The position numbers and the translations under genes are program-made. From positions 1-54,224 of the forward strand of contig JAHLLR010000033.1 of NCBI GenBank assembly GCA_020444075.1: 54,224 bases of DNA, in the 5' to 3' direction. The notes beneath the pieces are model-generated. The model had not been told where the DNA came from and ran no database searches. It saw only the letters and a program-made list of their open reading frames with translations. This document shows, one piece after another, positions 2,633-14,370 of the stretch; the stretch's first letter is position 1, and each line of letters starts with the position of its first letter. This DNA is from Deltaproteobacteria bacterium. Its GTDB lineage: Bacteria > Desulfobacterota > Desulfobacteria > Desulfobacterales > Desulfosarcinaceae.

Positions 2633-2818
2633 GTGGCAGACGATAAAAAAAACCAGATGGCCGAAACGCCGCCCAGCCTACCGCCCACCAAAGTTAAGTT
2701 CGAGATATACGGGGAAGAGATGATCGAGAAGCTGGTAAAATCAAGCGGGAACAGCGGCCGGGTGTATCTGCCGCCGGACTGGGTGGGCCGTCATGTGAAG
2801 ATCATCCGAGTCGATTAA
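2633..2818 (+). CDS. DUF2080-like small protein (copy 1)
   Basis: 61 residues, GTG start. The N-terminal 20 residues are polar and Pro-rich. The C-terminal 44 residues are a compact beta-rich module with the core SGRVYLPPDWVGRHVKIIR. The shape, VK-x-G-N-SG-x-VYLP-x-x-W-VG-x-x-VKII, is that of the DUF2080 'transposon-associated' small proteins, and it resembles the AbrB/MazE swapped-hairpin fold; the fold link is my inference. About 30 of 44 C-terminal residues are identical to the second copy at 11702-11902. It lies 35 bases upstream of a GNAT gene on the same strand, so the two are probably co-transcribed. No transposase is nearby, so the family name should not be read as evidence of a mobile element. 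Function unknown. Confidence 0.72.
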   Translation: MADDKKNQMAETPPSLPPTKVKFEIYGEEMIEKLVKSSGNSGRVYLPPDWVGRHVKIIRVD

Positions 2819-2853: not shown

Positions 2854-3288
2854 GTGGAAAATATTCGGATCAGAGAACTTGAAGCATCAGATACGGATGA
2901 CATCGCCGACATCTACGCATCCATTGTCCGCAAGCCCGTGGACCCCGACTTTAAAGCCTTGATCGAAAAGCATGCCAGAACCGAAAACGATATCTGTTAT
3001 GTGGCCGAGTTGGACAGCCGGGTCATCGGATTCATGATCAGCTATATCCTCACATTTGGTTTCGGCATCGAAAAGAGCGCCTGGATCGCCACCCTTGGCG
3101 TGGATCCGGAATTCATGGGCCAGGGAATCGGCGACCGGCTGGCCCGTGAAATTTTCAAGCTCTACAAGCGCATGGGAATCAGCCGCGTCTACACCTCTGT
3201 CCGCTGGGACTCGACCGATTTGCTCTCATTTTTCAAAACCCTGGGGTTCGACCGCAGCAAATTCATCAATCTGAAAAAAGAACTTTAG
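2854..3288 (+). CDS. GNAT-family N-acetyltransferase (copy 1)
   Basis: 144 residues, GTG start with AAGGA 8 bases upstream. Single GNAT domain: IRELEASDTDDI at the N-terminus, central beta strands (VIGFMISYIL), the acetyl-CoA pyrophosphate loop GVDPEFMGQGIGDRL around residues 86-100, and a C-terminal LLSFFKTLGF motif. GNAT enzymes move an acyl group from acyl-CoA to an amine such as a protein lysine or N-terminus, or a small molecule; the substrate cannot be read here. It is a clear paralogue of the convergent gene at 3354-3806, sharing GVDP, GIG-x-x-L, W-[DN]-[SD] and SK-x-INL. It pairs with the DUF2080-like gene just upstream. A role in acylating Bam proteins or regulators is only a hypothesis. 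Confidence 0.88.
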   Translation: MENIRIRELEASDTDDIADIYASIVRKPVDPDFKALIEKHARTENDICYVAELDSRVIGFMISYILTFGFGIEKSAWIATLGVDPEFMGQGIGDRLAREIFKLYKRMGISRVYTSVRWDSTDLLSFFKTLGFDRSKFINLKKEL

Positions 3289-3353: not shown

Positions 3354-3806
3354 TCACATGCTTCGTTCCAGGTTGATGGTTTTTGAGGGGCTGAATCGGT
3401 TCGCGCTGAAGAATTGGATCAGTTTGGAATCATTCCAGTCGACCAGGGTGTTAACTTTTCGAACGCCGAGTTTCCTTAAGTGCTCCATGAATTCATTAAT
3501 TAACTGTTCACCGATACCCTTATGCTGGCAATCAGGATCCACGCCGATGGTATCCAGGCTGGCCTCTTCCTTGAAAATGCCAAATTCTCCCACATAAAGC
3601 GCCCCCATGACAAACCCCACCACCGTTCCATCGGTTTCCTCTGCCACAAGCGACGTAGGGAGATAATCCTTTGATTTAAAAAGTTTTTCAAATTTCATTT
3701 CATAGTACTCCGGGCGTGATGTCTTGAGTACTTTCTCGTCAATCCCGACCACCGCGTCAAAATCGTCAGCCTTCATGAGTCTGATTTTAATGGTGCGCTC
3801 GTTCAT
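3354..3806 (-). CDS. GNAT-family N-acetyltransferase (copy 2)
   Basis: 150 residues with a GNAT fold: IKIRLMKADDFDAVVGID at the start, TVVGFVMGAL in the central sheet, the acetyl-CoA loop GVDPDCQHKGIGEQL around residues 91-105, and LIQFFSANRF near the end. Start ATG at 3806 has GAGG about 4 bases upstream. It lies 102 bases downstream of bamF on the same strand with no obvious terminator between, so it is likely the last gene of the bam operon. It is homologous to the facing GNAT gene at 2854-3288; the two are convergent with 65 bases between. The acyl acceptor is unknown. Its place after a benzoyl-CoA reductase operon makes a regulatory acylation role worth testing, but the sequence does not show it. 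Confidence 0.87.
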   Translation of the reverse strand: MNERTIKIRLMKADDFDAVVGIDEKVLKTSRPEYYEMKFEKLFKSKDYLPTSLVAEETDGTVVGFVMGALYVGEFGIFKEEASLDTIGVDPDCQHKGIGEQLINEFMEHLRKLGVRKVNTLVDWNDSKLIQFFSANRFSPSKTINLERSM

Positions 3807-3908: not shown

Positions 3909-4709
3909 TTATTCGGAAAGTTGAAGCGGGCCAGGCTCGCCGGTAATCTTTTCCACCGCCCCAAAGCGGGGGGGGCAGGCGTCAAAACAAGCTCCGCATC
4001 TGATGCATTTGTCCGGGTCAATGACATGGACCTGTTTTTTGCCGCCGGCTATCGCCTCTACAGGGCATTTGCGAAGGCAAATCATACAGGCCTGGCACTT
4101 TTGCGGATCAATGTGGTACGAAACGACTTCGCGAAACAGCCGATCGACCTCGTCGCTGGTGAAATATCCGTCATACGCTGCTTCGGAATCAAGACGTGCC
4201 GCCAGTTTCTCCCGCTTGACGATCTTGATGTAAGGGATCAGCCGGGTAACGGCTTCAAGTCTGGACGCCAGTTGATCCTTGCCCATGCCTTCGGCTTTGC
4301 CGAGCGGTCCTATCGCCTTCACCTTCTGAACAAAATCCTCAACCACGTCGGTAAAGCGGATCCCTTCGCCGCCGGACATGAATGCGATACTCAACCGCTC
4401 GGGATTCATCCCGATGTGGGCCAATATTTTTTTACATAAAAGCACCAGGTTGAGTGCGTGGTAATTCCCATGGGTGATGTAATTGCATTCATTCAGTCGG
4501 CAGCCGCCGACAAACACCCCATCGACGCCGTTGGAGAAGGCCCGGAGCATAAATCCCAGGTCGACTCTGCCGGAACACATGACACGAACCAGCCTGATAT
4601 CGGTTGTATATTGTAGTCTGGAAACTCCAGCGAGGTCAGCAGCGCCGTATGCTCACCAATGGCATACAAAACCGATTATTCTGGGTTTGAACAGAGGTCC
4701 GGTACTCAT
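3909..4709 (-). CDS. bamF: BamF-like MvhD-family electron carrier, selenoprotein
   Basis: 266 residues when the UGA at codon 19 is read as selenocysteine. Start ATG at 4709 has AGAGGAG about 10 bases upstream. The N-terminus reads KPRIIGFVCHW-U-AYGAADLAG, where homologues have Cys at the U position. The MvhD/FlpD part binds a [2Fe-2S] cluster in relatives: C16, U19, then CSGRVD and GGCRLNEC. The C-terminal part holds two [4Fe-4S] motifs, CQACMICLRKCP and CIRCGACFDACP. A conventional reading would start at an internal ATG (4580) and lose 43 residues and the catalytic motif. It follows bamE by 39 bases. In the Bam complex this subunit is thought to link HdrA-like BamE to an electron donor or acceptor. 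Selenocysteine at this site is known in archaeal VhuD, and I recall it in Geobacter BamF. Confidence 0.9.
4618..4655 (-). promoter_or_regulatory. Selenocysteine UGA codon and predicted bacterial SECIS hairpin in bamF
   Basis: UGA is at 4655-4653. After 22 bases comes CUGGA-GUU-UCCAG (4630-4618), a perfect 5-bp stem. The apical loop starts about 28 bases after the UGA, inside the range usual for bacterial SECIS elements, and it begins with G as is typical for SelB binding. Protein similarity on both sides of the UGA is continuous. Confidence 0.75.
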
Positions 4710-4748: not shown

Positions 4749-7700
4749 TCAATGCGCTTCCGCAGGTTCTTCAATCGCCGCATCAATTTGGCTCAAGAGC
4801 GCTTCATCGGTGAAATGCTTCAGGATAATCGCCCCTGTCGGGCACACGGCGTTACACAGGCCATCGCCCTTGCAGATCACCGGATTGACGACAGCCTTTT
4901 TGCCCTGTCGCGTCTCACGAAACTCGATGGCTCCGTAGGTACAAACCGAGATACAGGCCCCACAGCCCATACACTTCTTCTCAGTGACCTCGCAAACCGA
5001 GCCTGAAACGGTGACGATATCATGGGAAAGCAGGGTCAACACCCGACCTGCCGCCCCATAGGCCTGGTTGATCGCTTCCGGGATATGCTTGGGATAGTGC
5101 GCCATTCCGCAAAGGAAAACGCCGTCTGCGGCAAACTCGACCGGTCTGAGCTTAACGTGGGCTTCCTGGAAGAAACCATCCGGACCCACGGGCACTTTGA
5201 AGAATCGGGATATTTCCTGGGCGCCGGCCGATGGAATGACCGCGGCGGCCAGGGCCAGCAAATCGGCGTCTATCGCAATCTCGCGATCTAAAATGGGATC
5301 GGTCACGATTACCCTTAAAACGTCACGGCCATCGGCTTTCGCGACTTCCACCCGGGGTTTGCCATCCGGCTCCCATCGGATGAAACGGACACCTTGATTC
5401 GACGCTTCCCGGTAATAATCCTCATTGAAGCCGTAGGTTCGCATGTCCCGGAAGAGAATACTGACGTCCATATCGGGGTTGATCGCTTTCAGTTTCAAGG
5501 CGTTTTTTACCGCATGGCTGCAACATACCCGGGAGCAGTAATTTCTGTCTTCATTCCTGCAGCCGACGCACTGGATCATCGCGATGCCGGTCGCGTGAAT
5601 CACCTTCTCGTCCGCCCGGGCGATCCGCTCTCCCAGCTCAAGGTGGGTCACGACCCGGTCATCTTCTCCATAAAGGTATTCGGCTGGCCGGTATTCCTCC
5701 GCACCGACGGCTATGACGGCTGCACCGTGCGTTATCTGGGTACGCCCTCTCTCAGAGGTCACCGTGGTTACGAAATTGCCGACATACCCGGTTGCTTCGG
5801 TAATGGTTGCGCCGGTATATACATGGATCGAGGGGTGCCGGTAAACCTTGCGCACAAGGTCACGCAGATAGGCCTGAATATCCTGCCCGTCCAGCGTAAA
5901 ATGGATTCTTCTGGCCGTTCCGCCCAGGTCCGCATCCTTTTCCAGAAGGTAGACCTCATGTCCCTGGTCGGCGATGGAAAGCGCACAGGTCATGCCCGCC
6001 ACCCCGCCGCCCACCACCAGGGCCGCTTTGTTGACCGGCAGGTCGAACTCCTGCAGGGGCTCCAACGCAGCCGTTCGGGCGACCGACATCCGGGTGATAT
6101 CCTTCGCCTTGCGGGTAGCCGCCTCCTTTTCCTTCGAATGGCACCAGGAGCAGTGTTCCCTGATATTGGCCATGTCGGTGAAGTATTGATTAATTCCCCC
6201 TTCCCGAAGGGTCTCCCGGAACAGCGGTTCGAGGGTCCTGGGGCTGCAGGCAGCGACAACCACACGATTGAGCCCCTTTTCCTTGATCATGTCGGTTATT
6301 TCTTTGGCCGAATTGGTGGCGCACGAAAAGAGCTGTTCCTGCGCGTGGACGACATAAGGCAAGGTCAAGGCATATTCAACGGTGGAAGGCACATCCACGA
6401 CCCTTCCGATATTGGTGCCGCAGTGACACACAAAGACGCCGATGCGTGGCTCCTCCGTGGAGACATCCCTTTCCGGGGGGTATAATTTGGCCCGGGTGAG
6501 TTTCCCGCGCCTGTGGTCAAGGCGTTCACCGCATTGGGCGCCGGCTCCGCTGGCAGTATAAACCGACTCGGGAATATCCATCGGCCCCTGAAACGCACCG
6601 CTGACAAAAATCCCCGGCCGAGTGGTTTCCATGGGATTGGATGGACGCGTCTTACAGAATCCGTGGGCGGTAAGCTCGATGCCGAACTTCTTTTCCAGCT
6701 CTTTGGCGTCAGCCGGCGGATTCAATCCGACCGATAATACCACCAGATCGAATTCTTCCTCTTTTACACCATCAGCGGGAGTCGCATATTTTACGATTAC
6801 ATTCCCGCTTTCCGGGATCTCCCGTGCAATCGAGGCGAAGCTTCTTATAAACCGGATCCCGGGAAGCTGCTCAGCCCTTTGGAAGAAAACTTCGAAACCC
6901 TTGCCATAGGAACGAATATCGTTGTGGAATATCGTGCAGGCCACCGCTTCGTCATGATCTTTGGTCAAGATCACCTGTTTCTGGGTATAGGTGCAGCATA
7001 CGGATGAACAATAGCTGTTGTTGCCCGGCGTAACACGCCTGGAACCGGCGCATTGAATCCAGGCGATGTTGTGGGGGTGCCGCTTGTCGGAAGCACGCCG
7101 GATCTCACCTTCGTATGGCCCGGTGGCGCACAGCAGCCGTTCATAGTCCATACTGGTTACCACGTTCTGCATCTTTCCGTAGCCGTATTCGCCCCCGACT
7201 GTGGGGTCAAACACGTCAAATCCAGGAGACAGAAGGATCGCCGCGACGTTCAGGTTAACCTTCTGCGGGGTTTGATGGAGATCGATGGCGTCATTTTTAC
7301 AGACGCCTTCACAGATGCGACATTTCTTCTCTTTCAGGTAAAGACAGCTGTCGTCAATATAGGCGATCAGCGGAATGGCCTGCGCGAAGTATATATGAAC
7401 GGCTTTGTTGCTCGATATATCCTGATTGAATTGATCGGGATACTCGACCGGGCAGTATTCCACGCAGGTCGTGCAACCCGTGCATTTGCCCTCGATCACG
7501 TATCTGGGCTTCTTGATCAGGGTTACCGAAAAGTCTCCCGCCTCACCTTCCACACTGTCCACTTCAGTATAACTCAGGACCTCAATATTTGGATGCCGGC
7601 CGACCTCGACCAGTTTGGGAGAAAGTATTCACATGGAGCAGTCGTTAGTCGGATAGGTCTTGTCAAGCTGGGCCATATGGCCGCCAATGGCAGGTGATTT

Positions 7701-7844
7701 TTCAACCAGGTAGACCTTGAACCCCGCCGTGGCCAGATCAAGCGATGCCTGAATGCCGCTGATCCCACCGCCGACCACCATGACATCTCCAAAATTACTG
7801 TCCCCCAGACGACGACAAAGCTGATCAATCTGTTCTTTTTCCAC
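4749..7844 (-). CDS. bamE: BamE-like HdrA-family flavin/iron-sulfur subunit, selenoprotein
   Basis: 1031 residues, with UGA at codon 72 read as selenocysteine. Start GTG at 7844 has AAGGA 9 bases upstream. Order: FAD-binding Rossmann motif [16 protein letters not shown] near residue 23; [18 protein letters not shown] with Sec where HdrA proteins have Cys; a ferredoxin insert beginning [12 protein letters not shown] near residue 121; CHCGTNIG near 470 opening a second HdrA-like half with [17 protein letters not shown] near 605; and two C-terminal [4Fe-4S] motifs, [11 protein letters not shown] and [11 protein letters not shown]. The fused double-HdrA architecture and length fit BamE of class II benzoyl-CoA reductases. 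HdrA-type flavin is the bifurcating centre in relatives. It sits 33 bases after bamD. Standard gene calling gives two pieces (7844-7629 and 7562-4749), which is not a frameshift. Confidence 0.93.
7596..7631 (-). promoter_or_regulatory. Selenocysteine UGA codon and predicted bacterial SECIS hairpin in bamE
   Basis: UGA is at 7631-7629. After 15 bases comes CUGGUC-GAGGUC-GGCCGG (7613-7596): a 6-bp stem including two G-U pairs and a 6-base loop that begins with G. The loop starts 21 bases after the UGA, within the normal window for SelB recognition. The flanking protein DCSM-U-ILSPK matches the HdrA cysteine motif, so read-through is strongly supported. Confidence 0.8.
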
Positions 7845-7877: not shown

Positions 7878-9029
7878 CTAAATCACTTCCTGGACAATCT
7901 CGGTAATGTCCTTGATCTCCAGGGTCGCATCATCCTTCAGGGCCAATCGGCTGTCCTCGAAATTGGCGATGCAATAGGGGCAGGAGGTGACCAGCACCTG
8001 GGCGCCGACCGCGATGGCTTGCTCCACCCTGATGTCGGAAAAGCGTTCCCCCTTGGGAGTTTCCATCCAGATCCGGCCCCCTCCCCCCCCACAGCAGAGA
8101 CTGTCTCTCCGCGAGTCGGGCATCTCAATCAATTCCAGGCCGGGTATCCGGGTCAAGGCCTGCCGGGGTTCGTCATACAAGCCATTATGCCGACCCAGGT
8201 AACAGGGGTCATGATAAGTCACTTTTTTTTCATATTCCTGGGTGACTTCAAGCCGGCCTGAATTGATCAGCTCACACAGATACTGGGAGATATGAACCAC
8301 CTCAAAGTTCACCATGAATTCGGGATATTCATTTTTAAAGGTGTGGTAGCAATGGGGGGAGGACACCAGTATTTTCTTCACGCCATGCTCGACAAAGGTT
8401 TTGATGTTTTCCCGGGCCAGTCGTTTAAACAGTTCCTCGTTGCCCGTCTTGCGGATGCTTTCGCCGCAGCAGTTCTCCTTGGCGCCCAGGATGCCATAAT
8501 CGATTCCCGCCTTGTTAAGGATTTTGGCAGTGGCGGCAGCCACCTTTTTCAAGCGCGGGTCATAGCTGAGATAGCAGCCGGGAAAATATAAAAGGTCCAT
8601 CTCCTCGGTGAATGGTTTTACAGAAAGGCCCTTTGACCAATCGGCTCGGGTCTTTCGATCTTCACCCAAGGGGTTGCCTGCGCCGGTAAGGCTTGCGCTT
8701 ACGGTACGCAGCGGCTTGACGGCATTGGGGAAAATGCCATATTCCGTGGCAAGCCTGCGCAGGGAGACTCCGGATTCGATCTGTCTGACGTCCCTGGGGC
8801 ACTGCTGCGGGCAGCTGCCGCAGGTGGTGCAACGCCAGATATCCTCACTTTCAATGTCCGTCATACCGAAGGTGGCTTCACGGACAATCTTGCGCATGCT
8901 GAAGGAGATAACCCGATTCCACGGGCAAACCGCATCGCATAAGCCGCATTGGAAGCATAATTTAAATGCGTCTCCACCTTTTGCGTTGATTTCGTCGACG
9001 ATCTCTTTGTAATCGGCTACCGTCTCCAC
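7878..9029 (-). CDS. bamD: BamD-like HdrD-type iron-sulfur protein with two CCG domains
   Basis: 383 residues. Two N-terminal [4Fe-4S] ferredoxin motifs are C25/C28/C31/C35 (CFQCGLCDAVCP) and C67/C70/C73/C77 (CTTCGSCPQQCP). Two CCG domains follow: C152 with CC187-188 (NCCGES), and C276 with CC312-313 (CCGGGGG) plus C350/C353. In HdrB/HdrD relatives the CCG cysteines bind unusual non-cubane [4Fe-4S] clusters that reduce disulfides or relay electrons. In Bam complexes BamD connects BamE to BamC/BamB; the site of benzene-ring reduction is not here. The protein is soluble, with no membrane segment. It is the third bam gene, 19 bases after bamC, and is followed by bamE after 33 bases. Confidence 0.92.
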   Translation of the reverse strand: METVADYKEIVDEINAKGGDAFKLCFQCGLCDAVCPWNRVISFSMRKIVREATFGMTDIESEDIWRCTTCGSCPQQCPRDVRQIESGVSLRRLATEYGIFPNAVKPLRTVSASLTGAGNPLGEDRKTRADWSKGLSVKPFTEEMDLLYFPGCYLSYDPRLKKVAAATAKILNKAGIDYGILGAKENCCGESIRKTGNEELFKRLARENIKTFVEHGVKKILVSSPHCYHTFKNEYPEFMVNFEVVHISQYLCELINSGRLEVTQEYEKKVTYHDPCYLGRHNGLYDEPRQALTRIPGLELIEMPDSRRDSLCCGGGGGRIWMETPKGERFSDIRVEQAIAVGAQVLVTSCPYCIANFEDSRLALKDDATLEIKDITEIVQEVI

Positions 9030-9048: not shown

Positions 9049-9591
9049 CTATCCCTTTTTGGCCAGCGACATCCTGGCAACCGTATCTAAAATTTTCTGC
9101 AACCCATGTTTGTTGACCAGCGACGCCAAACCGATCTCCAATTCCTCACGCTCCTCCACGTCTTCGACTTCCTCTTCCCTTTCTTCTAGAATCAGGGCAT
9201 CGTTGATGCACCACTTGACGCACAAGGGTTCGTCTTCGCCTTCACACATATCGCATTTCAGAGGCAATCCGGAATCGGGTTCCTTGAAAATATCACGGGA
9301 GGGACACGACGACCGGCAGAAGGCACACTCGTCGTATTCCTTTCCGTCAATCACATATTTATCCCTGCCCATACATTCTGCCGGCGCATACTCACCCGCG
9401 TATACCGGAACGTATATATCTTTCAGGGGATGACGAATCACCCGGATACGCGACCGCTCCGGATTGTTGCTGCTGTACTTCGGCGCCGCGTGAAAGGCGG
9501 AGCAGATGACCTCACAGGCCCGGCAGCCATTGCATTTGTCAGCATCAATTTTAATGGTCTTGATGATCTTCTTTTTCTTCTCACCGGTCAC
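9049..9591 (-). CDS. bamC: BamC-like polyferredoxin electron-transfer subunit
   Basis: 180 residues, GTG start whose GTGA overlaps the bamB stop by 4 bases, implying translational coupling. Twelve cysteines can bind three [4Fe-4S] clusters: C20/C23/C26/C30 (CNGCRACEVIC), C73/C89/C92/C96 (CAFCRSSC) and C113/C116/C124/C128 (CDMCEGED, CVKWC). The C-terminus is a very acidic stretch (EEREEEVEDVEEREE) followed by a short helix. BamC forms a tight BamBC heterotetramer in Geobacter and brings electrons to the tungsten site. Length and layout fit that role. Confidence 0.93.
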   Translation of the reverse strand: MTGEKKKKIIKTIKIDADKCNGCRACEVICSAFHAAPKYSSNNPERSRIRVIRHPLKDIYVPVYAGEYAPAECMGRDKYVIDGKEYDECAFCRSSCPSRDIFKEPDSGLPLKCDMCEGEDEPLCVKWCINDALILEEREEEVEDVEEREELEIGLASLVNKHGLQKILDTVARMSLAKKG

Positions 9592-11603
9592 GGCTGCACC
9601 TCCCTGTCTTTCCCCTCCGGGGTCGTTTCGGATGGTGCCTCTCCGTTTTCTGAATAGACCCCTCTTTTTTCGAAATCTTCAAATACGTAATCCAAACCCA
9701 ATTCATGCAAAGACGCTTGGGTCGGAATTCCCTGGTCATTCCAGCCCTTGAATCGGTAATAGGTATCCAGGAGCTTTTCTTCCAGCTCGGGAAATCGTTT
9801 CTTCCAATGGTTCTCGGGCGGTTTCTCGTCTTTTCTGCGCATGCCTCTTCGTATGTTATTGGCCCTGACTAAGGTCCGGTATCGTTTGGCGGCCTGGGTG
9901 AGCTTGGCTTCATCCATATCGACCCCGGCGCCGGATGCGATAAATTTTGGGTAGTTGTGGATATGATACGGAGGTTTTAGAGGAAATGAGGACAAACCGG
10001 CGCACATGCCGAGGGCATCATCGATGTAGTGCATCCGCTCCTGCCAGTCGACAATATCACAGCACATCTCAGGCGTCGGGTAATAGGGGATCGATTTTTC
10101 TCCGCGGGGTTCCCAGTCCAGAAAATATTGTTTGAACTTTTCATCCGGAACCTGGAACCAATCCGCTACGAACTCCTCTCTCTGCTCGATTTTTGGGAAC
10201 GGCGCCTGGGGGAACTGCCCTTCAATCTGGGTGATGTTCATTTTCTCCCCGGTCGCATACATGAGGAAGTAAATCGGATTGAGCATGGACAGCTTGAGCG
10301 GCAGCTGCTCATGCTTTTTGATGTTGTTGTGGGCATATGCTTCCGCACCCTTGCCGATCTTCCGGGCCGCCCAGTAGGTACCGTTGGCCAGGACATCGCC
10401 GATGCCTTCCCGCCTGACAATTTTGTCGAGCAACCAGTAAAACCGCCCCTCATTATCGGAGGGCATGCCGGGAAAATCATCGTCAGTCAATATCCCGTTT
10501 TCGTAAAGTTCGAGGGCGAAGGCCATCACCTGCGGGGCCGAGAATCCATCCACGCCGTACTCGGTGGCGCTCTGAGCGATCCCCAGACCGAATTCCAGAT
10601 CGGAAAAGGCCGCCATGGTATAGGTCAGCTTTGAGAAGCATTTCATCATGTATGTGGGCAGTCCCGGGGGGGAGATGGTTGCCCCGCAGGTCATCGGGCA
10701 GTTATAGCAGCTGATCAGCCGCGTCCGCATCGTGTCCAGCGTCTCCGTCCACGCTTTGGCGATGTCTTCGTTCCAGAAATCTTTTCTGCGGACACGGGAA
10801 TTCCCCCACATGAAATTTTCGGTGTGCCATTTTTCATCATGGACTTTCATCTCCTGCGGTGAGCCCAATCCGGCTAAAATGGGCATGACCCCCGGAATCG
10901 GATTTTCATTGCGGAATTTGATATACTGCATGACGTCGTTGCACAGCCCCATGAATTCGGCCGGCCGGGCGACATTGACGTCTTTGGTCCCACGAACCAC
11001 GACCGCCTTTACGCCTTTGTCTCCCATCACGGCCCCGATGCCGCCCCGGCTGGCACTGGACCGCCCCTGCTCGATCGAGGCAAAATAGACCCTGTTTTCA
11101 CCGGCCAGGCCAATCGCCGCCACCTGGGCTTTGGGCTCCTTCAGTTCCTGCCGGATAAGCTCTGCCGTCTCAACAGCGCCTTTTCCCTTCAGATGCGTGG
11201 CATCCCGTATTTCCACCTGATCGTCTTTGATCCACAAATAAACCAGATCGGGGGACTTGCCGCGTAAGATGACTTTATCGTACCCGGCATATTTCAATTC
11301 GGGCGCCCAAAATCCCCCCATCATTGAAAATGCCATCAATTCGGTCTGCGGAGAAATGGTGGAAACAATGGTGCGGTTGCAACCGATGGCGGGCGTACCG
11401 CATAACAGGCCGGTGGCGAATATCAGCAGGTTGTCAGGAGAAAAGGGTTCAACCTCGGGAGGAACCCGATCCCACAATATCTTGGCGTTGGTACCCAACC
11501 CCCCCAGATAGAGCTCGGTGTCTCTCGGGTCGGTCTCCACCCGTTCAATGTTGCCCCGGGTCAGATCGACTTCCAGATTATAGCCTGTTTCCGCGTAACG
11601 CAT
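9588..11603 (-). CDS. bamB: BamB, tungsten active-site subunit of class II benzoyl-CoA reductase
   Basis: 671 residues. ATP-independent reduction of benzoyl-CoA to a cyclic 1,5-dienoyl-CoA, the dearomatising step of anaerobic aromatic degradation. Aldehyde:ferredoxin-oxidoreductase family, so a tungsten bis-metallopterin and one [4Fe-4S] cluster are expected. Seen here: cluster cysteines C299/C302/C306 (CYNCPMTCG) and distal C534; EMKVHDEKWHTENF placing E251, H255 and H260; and C322 (MKCFSK). From memory these are the active-site positions and numbers of Geobacter BamB. The N-terminus (MRYAETGYNLEVDL) and RSSASRGGIGAVMGDKG also match BamB rather than ordinary AOR. The last 35 residues are a polar tail beyond the usual length of about 650. 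It is a second gene after a DUF2080-like gene (98-base gap). Confidence 0.95.
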   Translation of the reverse strand: MRYAETGYNLEVDLTRGNIERVETDPRDTELYLGGLGTNAKILWDRVPPEVEPFSPDNLLIFATGLLCGTPAIGCNRTIVSTISPQTELMAFSMMGGFWAPELKYAGYDKVILRGKSPDLVYLWIKDDQVEIRDATHLKGKGAVETAELIRQELKEPKAQVAAIGLAGENRVYFASIEQGRSSASRGGIGAVMGDKGVKAVVVRGTKDVNVARPAEFMGLCNDVMQYIKFRNENPIPGVMPILAGLGSPQEMKVHDEKWHTENFMWGNSRVRRKDFWNEDIAKAWTETLDTMRTRLISCYNCPMTCGATISPPGLPTYMMKCFSKLTYTMAAFSDLEFGLGIAQSATEYGVDGFSAPQVMAFALELYENGILTDDDFPGMPSDNEGRFYWLLDKIVRREGIGDVLANGTYWAARKIGKGAEAYAHNNIKKHEQLPLKLSMLNPIYFLMYATGEKMNITQIEGQFPQAPFPKIEQREEFVADWFQVPDEKFKQYFLDWEPRGEKSIPYYPTPEMCCDIVDWQERMHYIDDALGMCAGLSSFPLKPPYHIHNYPKFIASGAGVDMDEAKLTQAAKRYRTLVRANNIRRGMRRKDEKPPENHWKKRFPELEEKLLDTYYRFKGWNDQGIPTQASLHELGLDYVFEDFEKRGVYSENGEAPSETTPEGKDREVQP

Positions 11604-11701
11604 TTTTTTCCCCTTCTATCTGATCTGAGTCCCCTGCTTGGTTTGGGTCAATCGAGCATGGCTTCTTTTTCAAAAAGATCGATTTCAAGATGATCTCTCC
11701 G

Positions 11702-11902
11702 TCAGTTCATGCGAATAATTTTGACGAGCCTGCCCACCCAATCGCCTGGGAGGTATACCCGACCGGTTTTTCCGCTCGTTTTGACCTCCTTTTCGATCAT
11801 CTCTTCCCCGAGGACCCTGAACTCGGTCTTGGGGGGCGTGGCAGGGTCTACCGGTACCCCGCTGATCTCTTTAGGAATCTTTCCTTTATCCTGGGCAACC
11901 AT
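11702..11902 (-). CDS. DUF2080-like small protein (copy 2), head of the bam operon
   Basis: 66 residues. The C-terminal module, GEEMIEKEVKTSGKTGRVYL followed by PGDWVGRLVKIIR, is about 68 percent identical to copy 1 at 2633-2818, while the N-terminal 20 residues differ. Family resemblance is to DUF2080 small proteins; the VK-x-SG-x-x-GRVYLP-x-x-W-VG core also looks like an AbrB/MazE-type DNA-binding hairpin (inference). It is the first gene downstream of the promoter and direct repeats at 12062-12121 and lies 98 bases upstream of bamB on the same strand, so it is probably the first gene of the operon. It could be an autoregulator or a small Bam-associated factor. Experimental function is unknown to me. 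Confidence 0.72.
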   Translation of the reverse strand: MVAQDKGKIPKEISGVPVDPATPPKTEFRVLGEEMIEKEVKTSGKTGRVYLPGDWVGRLVKIIRMN

Positions 11903-12061
11903 ATTTTACCCCTTCGGGGTATTTCGTACATTGCTTTGGGCTCGCATCCACCGGAATTCAAAGTTCGCACCAGCATAAGGTCGTATGACGGCGAATGGTT
12001 CGTCGGAAAAACCGAATCGGCATATGGTTTCCCTGACGATCCGGACCGTTTCTGTTACCAG

Positions 12062-12099
12062 GCTATAAAATGGTTACATAGTAGCTATAAAATAGTTAT
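12062..12099. repeat. Pair of 16-bp direct repeats with 22-bp period (candidate operator)
   Basis: Plus-strand GCTATAAAATGGTTAC (12062-12077) and GCTATAAAATAGTTAT (12084-12099) differ at two of 16 positions and start 22 bases apart, about two helical turns. A GTTAC half-copy lies at 12054-12058. They overlap and follow the predicted -10 region of the bam promoter, a good place for a repressor or an activator binding one face of the helix. Confidence 0.6.
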
Positions 12100-12121
12100 G
12101 AAGTTGCCCGGAATTTGTCAA
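12093..12121 (-). promoter_or_regulatory. Candidate promoter of the DUF2080-bamBCDEF operon
   Basis: Minus strand has a perfect -35 TTGACA (12121-12116), 17 bases, and then a poor -10 TAACTA (12098-12093). A weak -10 beside a perfect -35 fits a regulated promoter, and the direct repeats overlap it. It would leave a leader of about 185 bases before the first gene. Alternative -10 phasing is possible. Confidence 0.45.
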
Positions 12122-14370
12122 GAAAAAACTCATCGGTCTATTGATGCGGCGTTCAACGATCGACGACACACGCTTTAAATTACGGCCCGGAATCTAATAG
12201 GATGACCCTGCCGGATTGAACGCCGATCATGTCGACCCTTAGGCAGGGCGCACCTTATTCCTGATTTTTTACTCAATTGTTAGGAAAAATAATTCCCATT
12301 TTTAGGATGGGTACGGATATCAAAAACGAGCTTTTTCCATTACAACATATTTAAATATTAACAAATATAATATTTTTCAACCTAATCGACAAACTGGTCC
12401 GAATTTTGATCTACCTGCCAATGAGGCAGCCGGCTGAACGATGATGCTGCGGACCGCAATGGATCGGCCAATGGACCCGCAAGTTGCCGGGTAACCGCTA
12501 TCGCCGGTAAATGGCAGCTGATGCCCGCCGCGGCCCGATTGATTGTTTCCCAGCTGTAAACGAGATCGGCGTCAGTGGAAAGCTAACCTTGAACCCGTAC
12601 CAGACCGGTGGACAACCGATGAAGCCCCCTTTTTACCTGACGATACTGTTAACAATGACCGCTATCTTTCTATCATCGATGACCGTGGCAGGGGAAGCGC
12701 CGGAACAACGGGGGAGCAGTGAACTGAAATCAGAGTTGACATCGGCAGCCCGCGGGAATGACACCCATACGAACATGGCCGGATCCAATCCCTTGATACC
12801 CGTGGCGCGATTTTATCAAGCGGTCGGCCACTATCCGGTCTGGGTCGATGCCCACGGCCTGCGCCCTCAGGGAGAGTCCCTGTTTGCCGCCATTGGAAAA
12901 TCCGACGATGACGGTCTTGAGTCGGATGACTATCTCCCGCCATTCCTGCGGGAGGCGTGGAGAGATTCGGTGGCCTTCCTAGACACGATCCCGCTTAACG
13001 ACCCGAAACGATGCCTCCAGTTTGATGTGGCCTTGACCGATGGGGTGCTGCGCTATGCACGGCACCTGTCCCGGGGGAGGGTGACGCCGCAGTCGCTTTC
13101 ACCGCAGTGGCTTGCCCGCCGAAGCGTATCCACAAGAGATATTCCCGCCGAACTGGCCCGGGCAGTGAGTGAAGGCCGGCTGAAGGCCTATATTGAATCG
13201 CTGCACCCCAACGGGCAGGCCTATCGGGGATTGAGAAAGGCCTTGCGGCAATATCTGCAGATCAAGCGGTCCGGCGGCTGGCCGGCCATCGCGCCGGGTC
13301 CCACATTGCAGAGAGGAGACAAGGGTTTTCGTGTCGAGACGTTAACGCACCGTCTGAAAATAACGGACGATTGGTCCCCGGACATACCGGAAGATCCTTC
13401 CGAATATGATGAAATCGTCGAAGCGGCGGTAAAACGGTTCCAGCGGCGTCACGGCTTACGGGCAGATGGCCGCGTCGGCCAACGCACCCGGACCGAACTG
13501 AACATCCCTGTAGAACAAAGAATCACCCGGTTGCAGCTCAACATGGAGCGCTGGCGATGGTATCCGGACAGCCTCGGCGACCGCTATCTGATGGTCAACA
13601 TCCCCGCATTTGAATTAAGCGTCGTTGAAGGCGACGCACGAATCGACAGCATGCGCGCCATTGTGGGCAGGAAACGCCGACAGACACCCATCCTGTCCGG
13701 CCGAATGACCTACCTGGAATTGAACCCCTTTTGGAACATCCCCCGAAAAATTGCCCACAGGGACATTCTTCCAAAGGCAGTCAGCGATCCGACCTACCTG
13801 ACCCGGCAGGGCATCAGAGTCTTTGACAGTTGGGACGAGCAGGCCCGGGAGCTTGATCCGACAGGCATCACCTGGGAGAACCTGTCTGCCAGCTATTTCC
13901 CCTACCGCCTGAGGCAGGATCCCTCGGAGGTGAATGCGCTGGGACGGGTCAAGTTCATGTTTCCCAACCCTCAGAGCGTCTACATCCACGACACCCCCGG
14001 CAAATCCCTCTTCAACCGGCAGCAGCGGAGTCTTTCCTCCGGATGTGTCCGGCTGGAAACACCGCTGGTCCTGGCGCAATATCTTTTACGCGAACAGGGG
14101 TGGGATCGCACCCGCCTGGAAACCGCCATTGCGAAGGAGCAGCGCCAAACCGTAGTGCTTGACAACCCCATCCCGGTACACCTTGTTTATTTTACCGCCT
14201 GGGTGGAGGCGAATGGGAGGGTGAATTTCAGGGAGGATATTTATGAGCGGGACCGGCGGCTCCAGTTCGCCCTGAGAACACCCGAGTCAGATCTTGTTTT
14301 TTGCCGTAACAATAATGCTCAGGAAGACGATCTGCTGGCGCGTTTTACCACGCCGAAAGCAGCCCCCCTC

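Follow-up and report, generated by a model that had tools for sequence, protein, structure and literature searches.

A UGA codon in bamE of a class II benzoyl-CoA reductase gene cluster is probably read as selenocysteine

An HdrA-like gene of a deltaproteobacterium of the family Desulfosarcinaceae carries an in-frame TGA at codon 72. Is this gene broken, does it encode two separate polypeptides, or is the UGA of its messenger read as an amino acid, presumably selenocysteine (Sec), as the initial annotation of the sequence had proposed? We addressed this question by computational analysis of a stretch of 54,224 nucleotides (contig JAHLLR010000033.1 of assembly GCA_020444075.1; hereafter the window), of the rest of the source genome, and of homologous loci in other genomes.

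Results

The interrupted gene is bamE

A 71-residue open reading frame (ORF) with a GTG start runs from 7844 to 7629 on the minus strand and, as read from the frame, ends at the TGA at 7631-7629. Past this codon the frame is unbroken as far as the TGA at 4751-4749, and reading through codon 72 joins the 71-residue ORF to one of 937 residues, giving a fused HdrA of 1031 residues and an estimated mass of about 113 kDa, BamE. The fusion proposed in the initial annotation was therefore confirmed with exact coordinates. The protein scored 612 bits against the HdrA structure 5odc and 612.8 bits against 8rvu, and the top Foldseek matches of its structural model were HdrA structures; with the HdrA2 model it reached 927.1 bits, under the full-length cut-off of 1100 of that model. 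On the same strand, bamB, bamC and bamD lie upstream and bamF lies downstream. BamB matched the Geobacter benzoyl-CoA reductase 4z3w with 1269.6 bits across residues 1-651. This identifies the gene as bamE, within a cluster bamB-C-D-E-F for a class II benzoyl-CoA reductase, an enzyme system of anaerobic benzoate degradation. The following features of the cluster are considered first.

9588..11603, minus strand: bamB, tungsten benzoyl-CoA reductase subunit (match to 4z3w)
9049..9591, minus strand: bamC, Fe-S protein
7878..9029, minus strand: bamD, HdrD/HdrC-HdrB-like
4749..7844, minus strand: bamE, fused double HdrA of 1031 residues, predicted Sec at residue 72, natural stop TGA at 4751-4749 (ORFs, HdrA family matches, Foldseek)
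7629..7631, minus strand: predicted Sec codon TGA, residue 72, motif DCSM-U-ILSPK (frame and codon column of the homologues)

The genes for B, C, D and F were all found, at 40% identity or more, around 47 of the 96 Sec-form bamE rows described below; at the other 49 at least one of the four was not found, many of these stretches being short or ended by the contig.

The cluster is flanked by genes for two small, closely related proteins (one contains ..VKFEIYGEEMIEKLVKSSGNSGRVYLPPDWVGRHVKIIR..), at 2633-2818 (plus strand) and 11702-11902 (minus strand) of the window. Two ORFs that resemble GNAT acetyltransferases by eye also adjoin it, at 2854-3288 (plus strand) and 3354-3806 (minus strand); bamK of Geobacter is annotated as an N-acetyltransferase (PMC1924859).

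Codon 72 encodes Cys or is TGA in all homologues read

We compared codon 72 in 110 rows of roughly at least 70% identity, namely the gene of the window, 80 named loci and 29 loci of the order to which the source belongs. It was TGA in 96 rows, TGC in 14 and never anything else. Merging nine exact duplicates left 101 distinct genes, the window gene included, with 87 TGA, 14 TGC and no other codon, so that Sec prevails at this site in the close relatives of BamE. Laboratory strains with the Sec form include Desulfococcus multivorans and Desulfosarcina alkanivorans, both able to grow on benzoate. The 80 named loci were the best 80 of 304 confirmed stretches; there was no selection for TGA among them, because the peptide patterns used in the search exclude the Sec motif. 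The search of the order yielded 30 matches that were taken as loci (29 of them new) among the matches listed. Among those listed at 68% identity or more, all but three, which begin after residue 72, had an in-frame TGA, the position of which was verified solely at the loci that were read.

More distant proteins gave a similar picture. In 20 double-HdrA paralogues, chosen by hand among the matches listed at 46-51% identity, the column held 7 TGA, 9 TGT and 4 TGC. The initial annotation had placed the TGA at the HdrA cysteine motif and had named any residue other than Cys or Sec in homologues as evidence against its reading; none was encountered in the 110 rows or in the 20 paralogues. In a protein alignment of 41 of 49 rows (L096, L114, L126, L132, L145, L149, L153 and L154 were left out), Cys69 and Cys/Sec72 were invariant in 41 of 41. 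All computable dN/dS ratios, before as well as after the TGA, stayed under 0.13, and one value was saturated; five comparison rows were used, of which L051 and L085 are the same gene.

Some bamE homologues carry further stops (TAA, TAG or other) besides the TGA at the Sec position, for instance G112:C293, G127:C25, G006:C1112 and G010:C1, and also L145.

A conserved hairpin follows the TGA

7596..7613, minus strand: putative SECIS hairpin CTGGTCG-AGGT-CGGCCGG, 7-bp stem, beginning 15 nt past the TGA (fold and conservation)

In bacteria, a SECIS element is a hairpin that follows the UGA at a short and fixed distance and has a G within the first two positions of its loop; the pairing of SelB with its SECIS is often specific to a species. 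The 18 nt listed above are predicted to fold into a 7-bp stem with the loop AGGU (-10.2 kcal/mol), and 22 nt separate the UGA from this loop; the hairpin has both the short fixed distance and the G in the first two loop positions. The initial annotation had correctly placed its start 15 nt after the TGA, but its 6-bp stem with a G-leading loop of 6 nt gave way, in the fold, to 7 bp and AGGU.

Evidence for selection on this element came from synonymous codons. We scored the uniformity of each codon relative to the rows' own codon usage in the 96 TGA rows, over 540 testable codons (positions where 90% or more of the TGA rows agree on an amino acid for which synonymous codons exist). Codons 78, 79, 80, 81 and 83, all of them inside the hairpin, took ranks 1-5. 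The exact hairpin was present in 73 of the 87 distinct TGA genes, and most of the 14 others kept the stem: nine had a G-to-A change in the 3' arm, turning G-U into A-U, and one a U-to-C change in the 5' arm, while pairing was kept through a swap of the closing pair from G-C to C-G in L059 and of the basal C-G to A-U in two genes. The loop or a loop-closing base was changed in one of the two genes with the basal swap and in one further gene. The six pairs of the stem as initially drawn were standard pairs in 96 of 96 TGA rows and were paired in 57-100% of the 14 Cys rows. The 14 Cys genes have a different sequence at this place and lack the hairpin, with a mean fold of -3.87 kcal/mol versus -10.75 kcal/mol in the TGA genes. 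The same 18-nt hairpin was also found in five of the seven TGA paralogues, despite less than 51% protein identity; the other two, L159 and L161, carry a different sequence.

Taken as a single sequence, the 24-nt stretch with the hairpin ranked only 11th of 1010 by z-score, and the one starting one codon earlier ranked 7th (30 synonymous recodings each); the proof therefore rests on conservation and not on fold energy. Judged by this conservation, the hairpin downstream of codon 72 is the predicted SECIS element of bamE.

These data bear on the alternative that survives best, namely that translation normally stops at the TGA and starts independently for the 937-residue ORF, at a GTG of its own (7562), resulting in a split HdrA. 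Both ORFs exist mechanically, a short HdrA-N ORF near a large HdrA-like ORF on another contig of the source genome (C14, see below) represents such a split arrangement, and bamE of Desulfococcus multivorans is given as two loci, dmul_C24500/10 (PMC5109826). We nevertheless consider two polypeptides very improbable, in view of the sense codon TGC found at the site in 14 of the 101 distinct genes, of the frozen SECIS and of the conservation of the codons between the TGA and the second GTG. Some termination at the UGA under selenium shortage is possible.

Genes for selenocysteine synthesis and decoding

The initial annotation had tied its reading to the presence of selA, selB, selC and selD in the genome. 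We found selA on contig C67 (607.9 bits), selB on C27 (372 bits), a second, divergent selB on C148 (295.9 bits), selD on C88 (371.5 bits), which itself contains one in-frame TGA, and a tRNA-Sec with the anticodon UCA on C148 (50.6 bits for a cut-off of 47). All components were present, though the tRNA-Sec is divergent. Among 14 control genomes of unverified Sec use, the same cut-offs were exceeded by selA in 1, by selB and selD in 2 each and by tRNA-Sec in 5, which makes the tRNA-Sec model the least specific one.

When the source genome and 20 others were searched, a tRNA-Sec match over the cut-off was obtained in 16 of the 21. A form scoring 73-77 bits was the best match in 14 of the 20 other genomes. 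This form, usual in the relatives and within the genus, was not found in the source assembly (95.75% complete), where the divergent tRNA was the only match over the cut-off. G248, a genome of the same genus, likewise has the divergent tRNA-Sec only, adjoining the divergent SelB. The usual tRNA-Sec may be missing from the incomplete assembly, or the divergent tRNA-Sec/SelB pair may do the decoding work. The contig C148 may be foreign; the contamination estimate is 2.09%, and the G+C content and tetranucleotide make-up of C148 are close to those of the window.

In both genomes the divergent tRNA-Sec(UCA) lies about 30 nt upstream of the second, divergent SelB gene (L043, G000:C148:23176-25192, and L189, on G248:C140). 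A similar tRNA in G005 (L190, G005:C128) was called tRNA-Cys, with the anticodon GCA. A TAA seen in frame in an HdrA match on C148 simply terminates a short HdrA-N ORF of the Cys type.

We also looked for selA in the 47 genomes that contain 50 of the 80 named loci, 14 with the Cys form and 36 with the Sec form; L090 was not among these loci, but it is on the same contig as the Cys-form locus L143, counted as G202. selA was over the cut-off in 43 of the 47 genomes, corresponding to 30 of 33 with the Sec form and 13 of 14 with the Cys form. A full selA over the cut-off was absent from three Sec-form genomes, G220 (partial), G222 and G239.

Could a variant tRNA insert Cys or Trp at the UGA instead? 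The only tRNA-Sec match is divergent and sits beside a divergent SelB, a similar tRNA in G005 was called tRNA-Cys, and Cys is the sole alternative residue at the site. Against this, the tRNA of the source genome has the anticodon UCA, canonical selA, selB and selD are present, and selA accompanies the Sec form in nearly all genomes surveyed (30 of 33), so that we give such a decoding slightly less credit even than two polypeptides. A nonsense mutation, pseudogene or assembly error, of which a lone stop within an otherwise good gene is the usual look, is refuted by the homologue column, with the same TGA in 87 distinct genes of many named lineages, and is made negligible by the low dN/dS on both sides and the conserved hairpin.

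We therefore favor, with a probability of about 0.96, the reading that bamE is an intact selenoprotein gene, in which UGA 72 would be read as Sec via the SECIS with SelA, SelD and SelB, the product being the double-HdrA BamE of the bifurcating class II benzoyl-CoA reductase complex, with Sec72 likely at the cluster of residues 464-604. In this reading the hairpin would direct the insertion of Sec at UGA 72, the Sec-tRNA being made by SelA and SelD and delivered by SelB. We infer the actual insertion of Sec at residue 72 from sequence, as well as the role of this residue in the low-potential electron branch.

A second TGA in bamF and other selenoprotein candidates

3909..4709, minus strand: bamF, MvhD/VhuD-like, 266 residues, predicted Sec at residue 19 (VCHW-U-AYGAADLAG)
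4653..4655, minus strand: second predicted Sec codon TGA, in bamF, at the MvhD-type CxxC motif
4618..4630, minus strand: SECIS-like hairpin of bamF, CTGGA-GTT-TCCAG

BamF had a TGA in 84 of 84 distinct Sec-BamE loci at which it was readable (of 87). At the 14 Cys-BamE loci, the BamF codon was TGA in 5, Cys in 7 and unreadable in 2. Of the 89 distinct TGA bamF genes, 87 have enough sequence around the codon, and the exact bamF hairpin stood at an unchanged offset in 76 of these 87. By these comparisons, BamF is the predicted second selenoprotein of the cluster, with an estimated mass of about 29 kDa. With Sec in 87 of 101 BamE and a TGA in all 84 readable BamF beside a Sec-BamE, the complex should need selenium in most of these lineages.

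Contig C14 of the source genome holds another likely selenoprotein cluster, read by eye (L042, G000:C14:15000-33000; features at 5709 to about 6100 and at 11465-12361). It comprises a short HdrA-N ORF whose TGA falls at the CxxU site seen in BamE (DCAM-U-IISP), together with an MvhD that has Cys in its CxxC motif but a TGA in another motif (VSG-U-HPGECHY).

Cysteine forms of BamE

The 14 Cys-BamE genes (L097, L101, L123, L124, L128, L130, L132, L140, L143, L145, L147, L150, L154 and L155) made up one side of a branch with an SH-aLRT of 100, nested among the Sec genes, in a quick IQ-TREE tree with a midpoint root and long outgroup branches. This tree fits a single change from Sec to Cys. Two further substitutions, L74E and V81C (giving Glu74 and Cys81), were present in 14 of 14 distinct Cys-BamE genes and in 0 of 87 Sec genes. 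Among the paralogues, Cys81 was found in 3 of 13 Cys forms and in 0 of 7 Sec forms. Cys81 was thus confined, among the rows read, to genes with Cys72, but it is not required, since the other 10 Cys-form paralogues do without it.

The idea that Cys-form genomes would be devoid of Sec machinery was not borne out. As 13 of these 14 genomes have selA, the change is not explained by a loss of Sec decoding. Both forms can occur side by side: contig JAENYQ010000011.1 carries two tandem bamB-C-D-E-F clusters, one with a Sec-BamE (L090) and one with a Cys-BamE (L143). BamB of the former is 75% identical to the BamB of the window, compared with 51% for BamB of the latter. The two clusters possibly represent selenium-dependent isoforms or serve different substrates.

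Sec72 as a predicted cluster ligand

6033..6455, minus strand: N-terminal-type Fe-S domain opening the second HdrA unit, residues 464-604, predicted partner of Sec72 (alignment to the N-terminal domain of 5odc and 8rvu)

BamE, a component of the electron-bifurcating class II benzoyl-CoA reductase complex, has two HdrA units per chain. A match to the N-terminal Fe-S domain of HdrA (5odc) was confined to residues 464-630, at the start of the second unit, and Cys 473, 475, 508 and 533 were invariant in 41 of 41 rows. The DCSxC motif, searched by eye, is in the first unit only, with none in the second, and residue 72 aligns without gaps with residue 197 of 5odc. In HdrA, the N-terminal [4Fe-4S] cluster of one copy has Cys197 of the other copy as a ligand, and in fused HdrAs one half has the N-terminal domain and the other Cys197 (PMC9012536). 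We took the structure described there to be 5odc because position and motif agree, although its source is named M. wolfeii in PMC9012536 but Methanothermococcus thermolithotrophicus in the PDB title of 5odc. The AlphaFold2 model of BamE had a mean pLDDT of 86.5 and a pTM of 0.88, with a pLDDT below 50 for residues 58-66.

Its alignment with Cys197, the ligand of the partner's N-terminal cluster, leads to the prediction that Sec72 links both halves of BamE via such a cluster. The first unit carries residue 72 and no N-terminal Fe-S domain, while the second has that domain and no DCSxC. Sec72 would thus replace Cys197 of HdrA and most likely ligate, or gate, the cluster bound in the same chain by residues 464-604. 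Cys 473, 475, 508 and 533 would be ligands by analogy with the HdrA described in PMC9012536.

We tentatively go one step further, with somewhat less than even confidence: a [4Fe-4S] cluster bridging the fused HdrA halves may have Sec72 as a selenolate ligand and thereby form a natural Se-ligated cubane in the very-low-potential electron branch to benzoyl-CoA reduction, and the lineage that lost Sec may have compensated with the linked L74E and Cys81. If Sec72 is a cluster ligand, comparing the Sec and Cys forms of BamE, both available on the L090/L143 contig, would show the effect of selenium on an Fe-S cluster in electron bifurcation. A literature search on Sec as a natural [4Fe-4S] ligand returned nothing, which says little, as most papers in subscription journals were outside the search; in the literature covered we came across no such ligand prediction for Sec.

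Comparison with known systems

BamE of D. multivorans DSM 2059 was listed in 2016 as a selenocysteine gene with a UGA and a SECIS (PMC5109826). It has the same gene name and belongs to the same complex as bamE of the window, in a different species; the part of that account consulted contains no survey of SECIS conservation or of Sec and Cys forms. Gene callers that stop at TGA would split bamE into two fragments, and the D. multivorans gene indeed bears two locus tags. The same list includes mvhD of D. multivorans (dmul_C28840/50) as a Sec gene, which is apparently not the neighbouring BamF, since its locus number is far from that of bamE.

Sec-HdrA and Sec-FrhD/MvhD are known selenoprotein families (PMC1794560, PMC13188914). 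BamE has the HdrA homology and the CxxU motif in common with the Sec-HdrA of methanogens and deltaproteobacteria described in these papers, but it fuses two HdrA units and is encoded in a benzoyl-CoA reductase cluster instead of an hdrA-frhD-frhG-frhA hydrogenase operon. In Geobacter metallireducens, bamB to bamF are likewise on consecutive tags, Gmet_2087-2083 (PMC1924859). Table 3 of PMC1794560 lists FrhD (BamF type) but no HdrA in the selenoproteome of this species, the BamE of which is therefore presumably a Cys form. BamF of Geotalea daltonii has been treated as selenite-binding (PMC13119186).

The closest architectural parallel that we consulted is the fused double HdrA of ANME archaea (HdrA 3 and 4), in which one half has the N-terminal Fe-S domain without Cys197 and the other half the reverse (PMC9012536). 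BamE shows this division too, but its halves come in the opposite order, and Sec is predicted at the position of Cys197. Sec-BamE itself is already known from D. multivorans (PMC5109826); what is added here is the survey, the paired TGA in BamF and the prediction of a cluster ligand.
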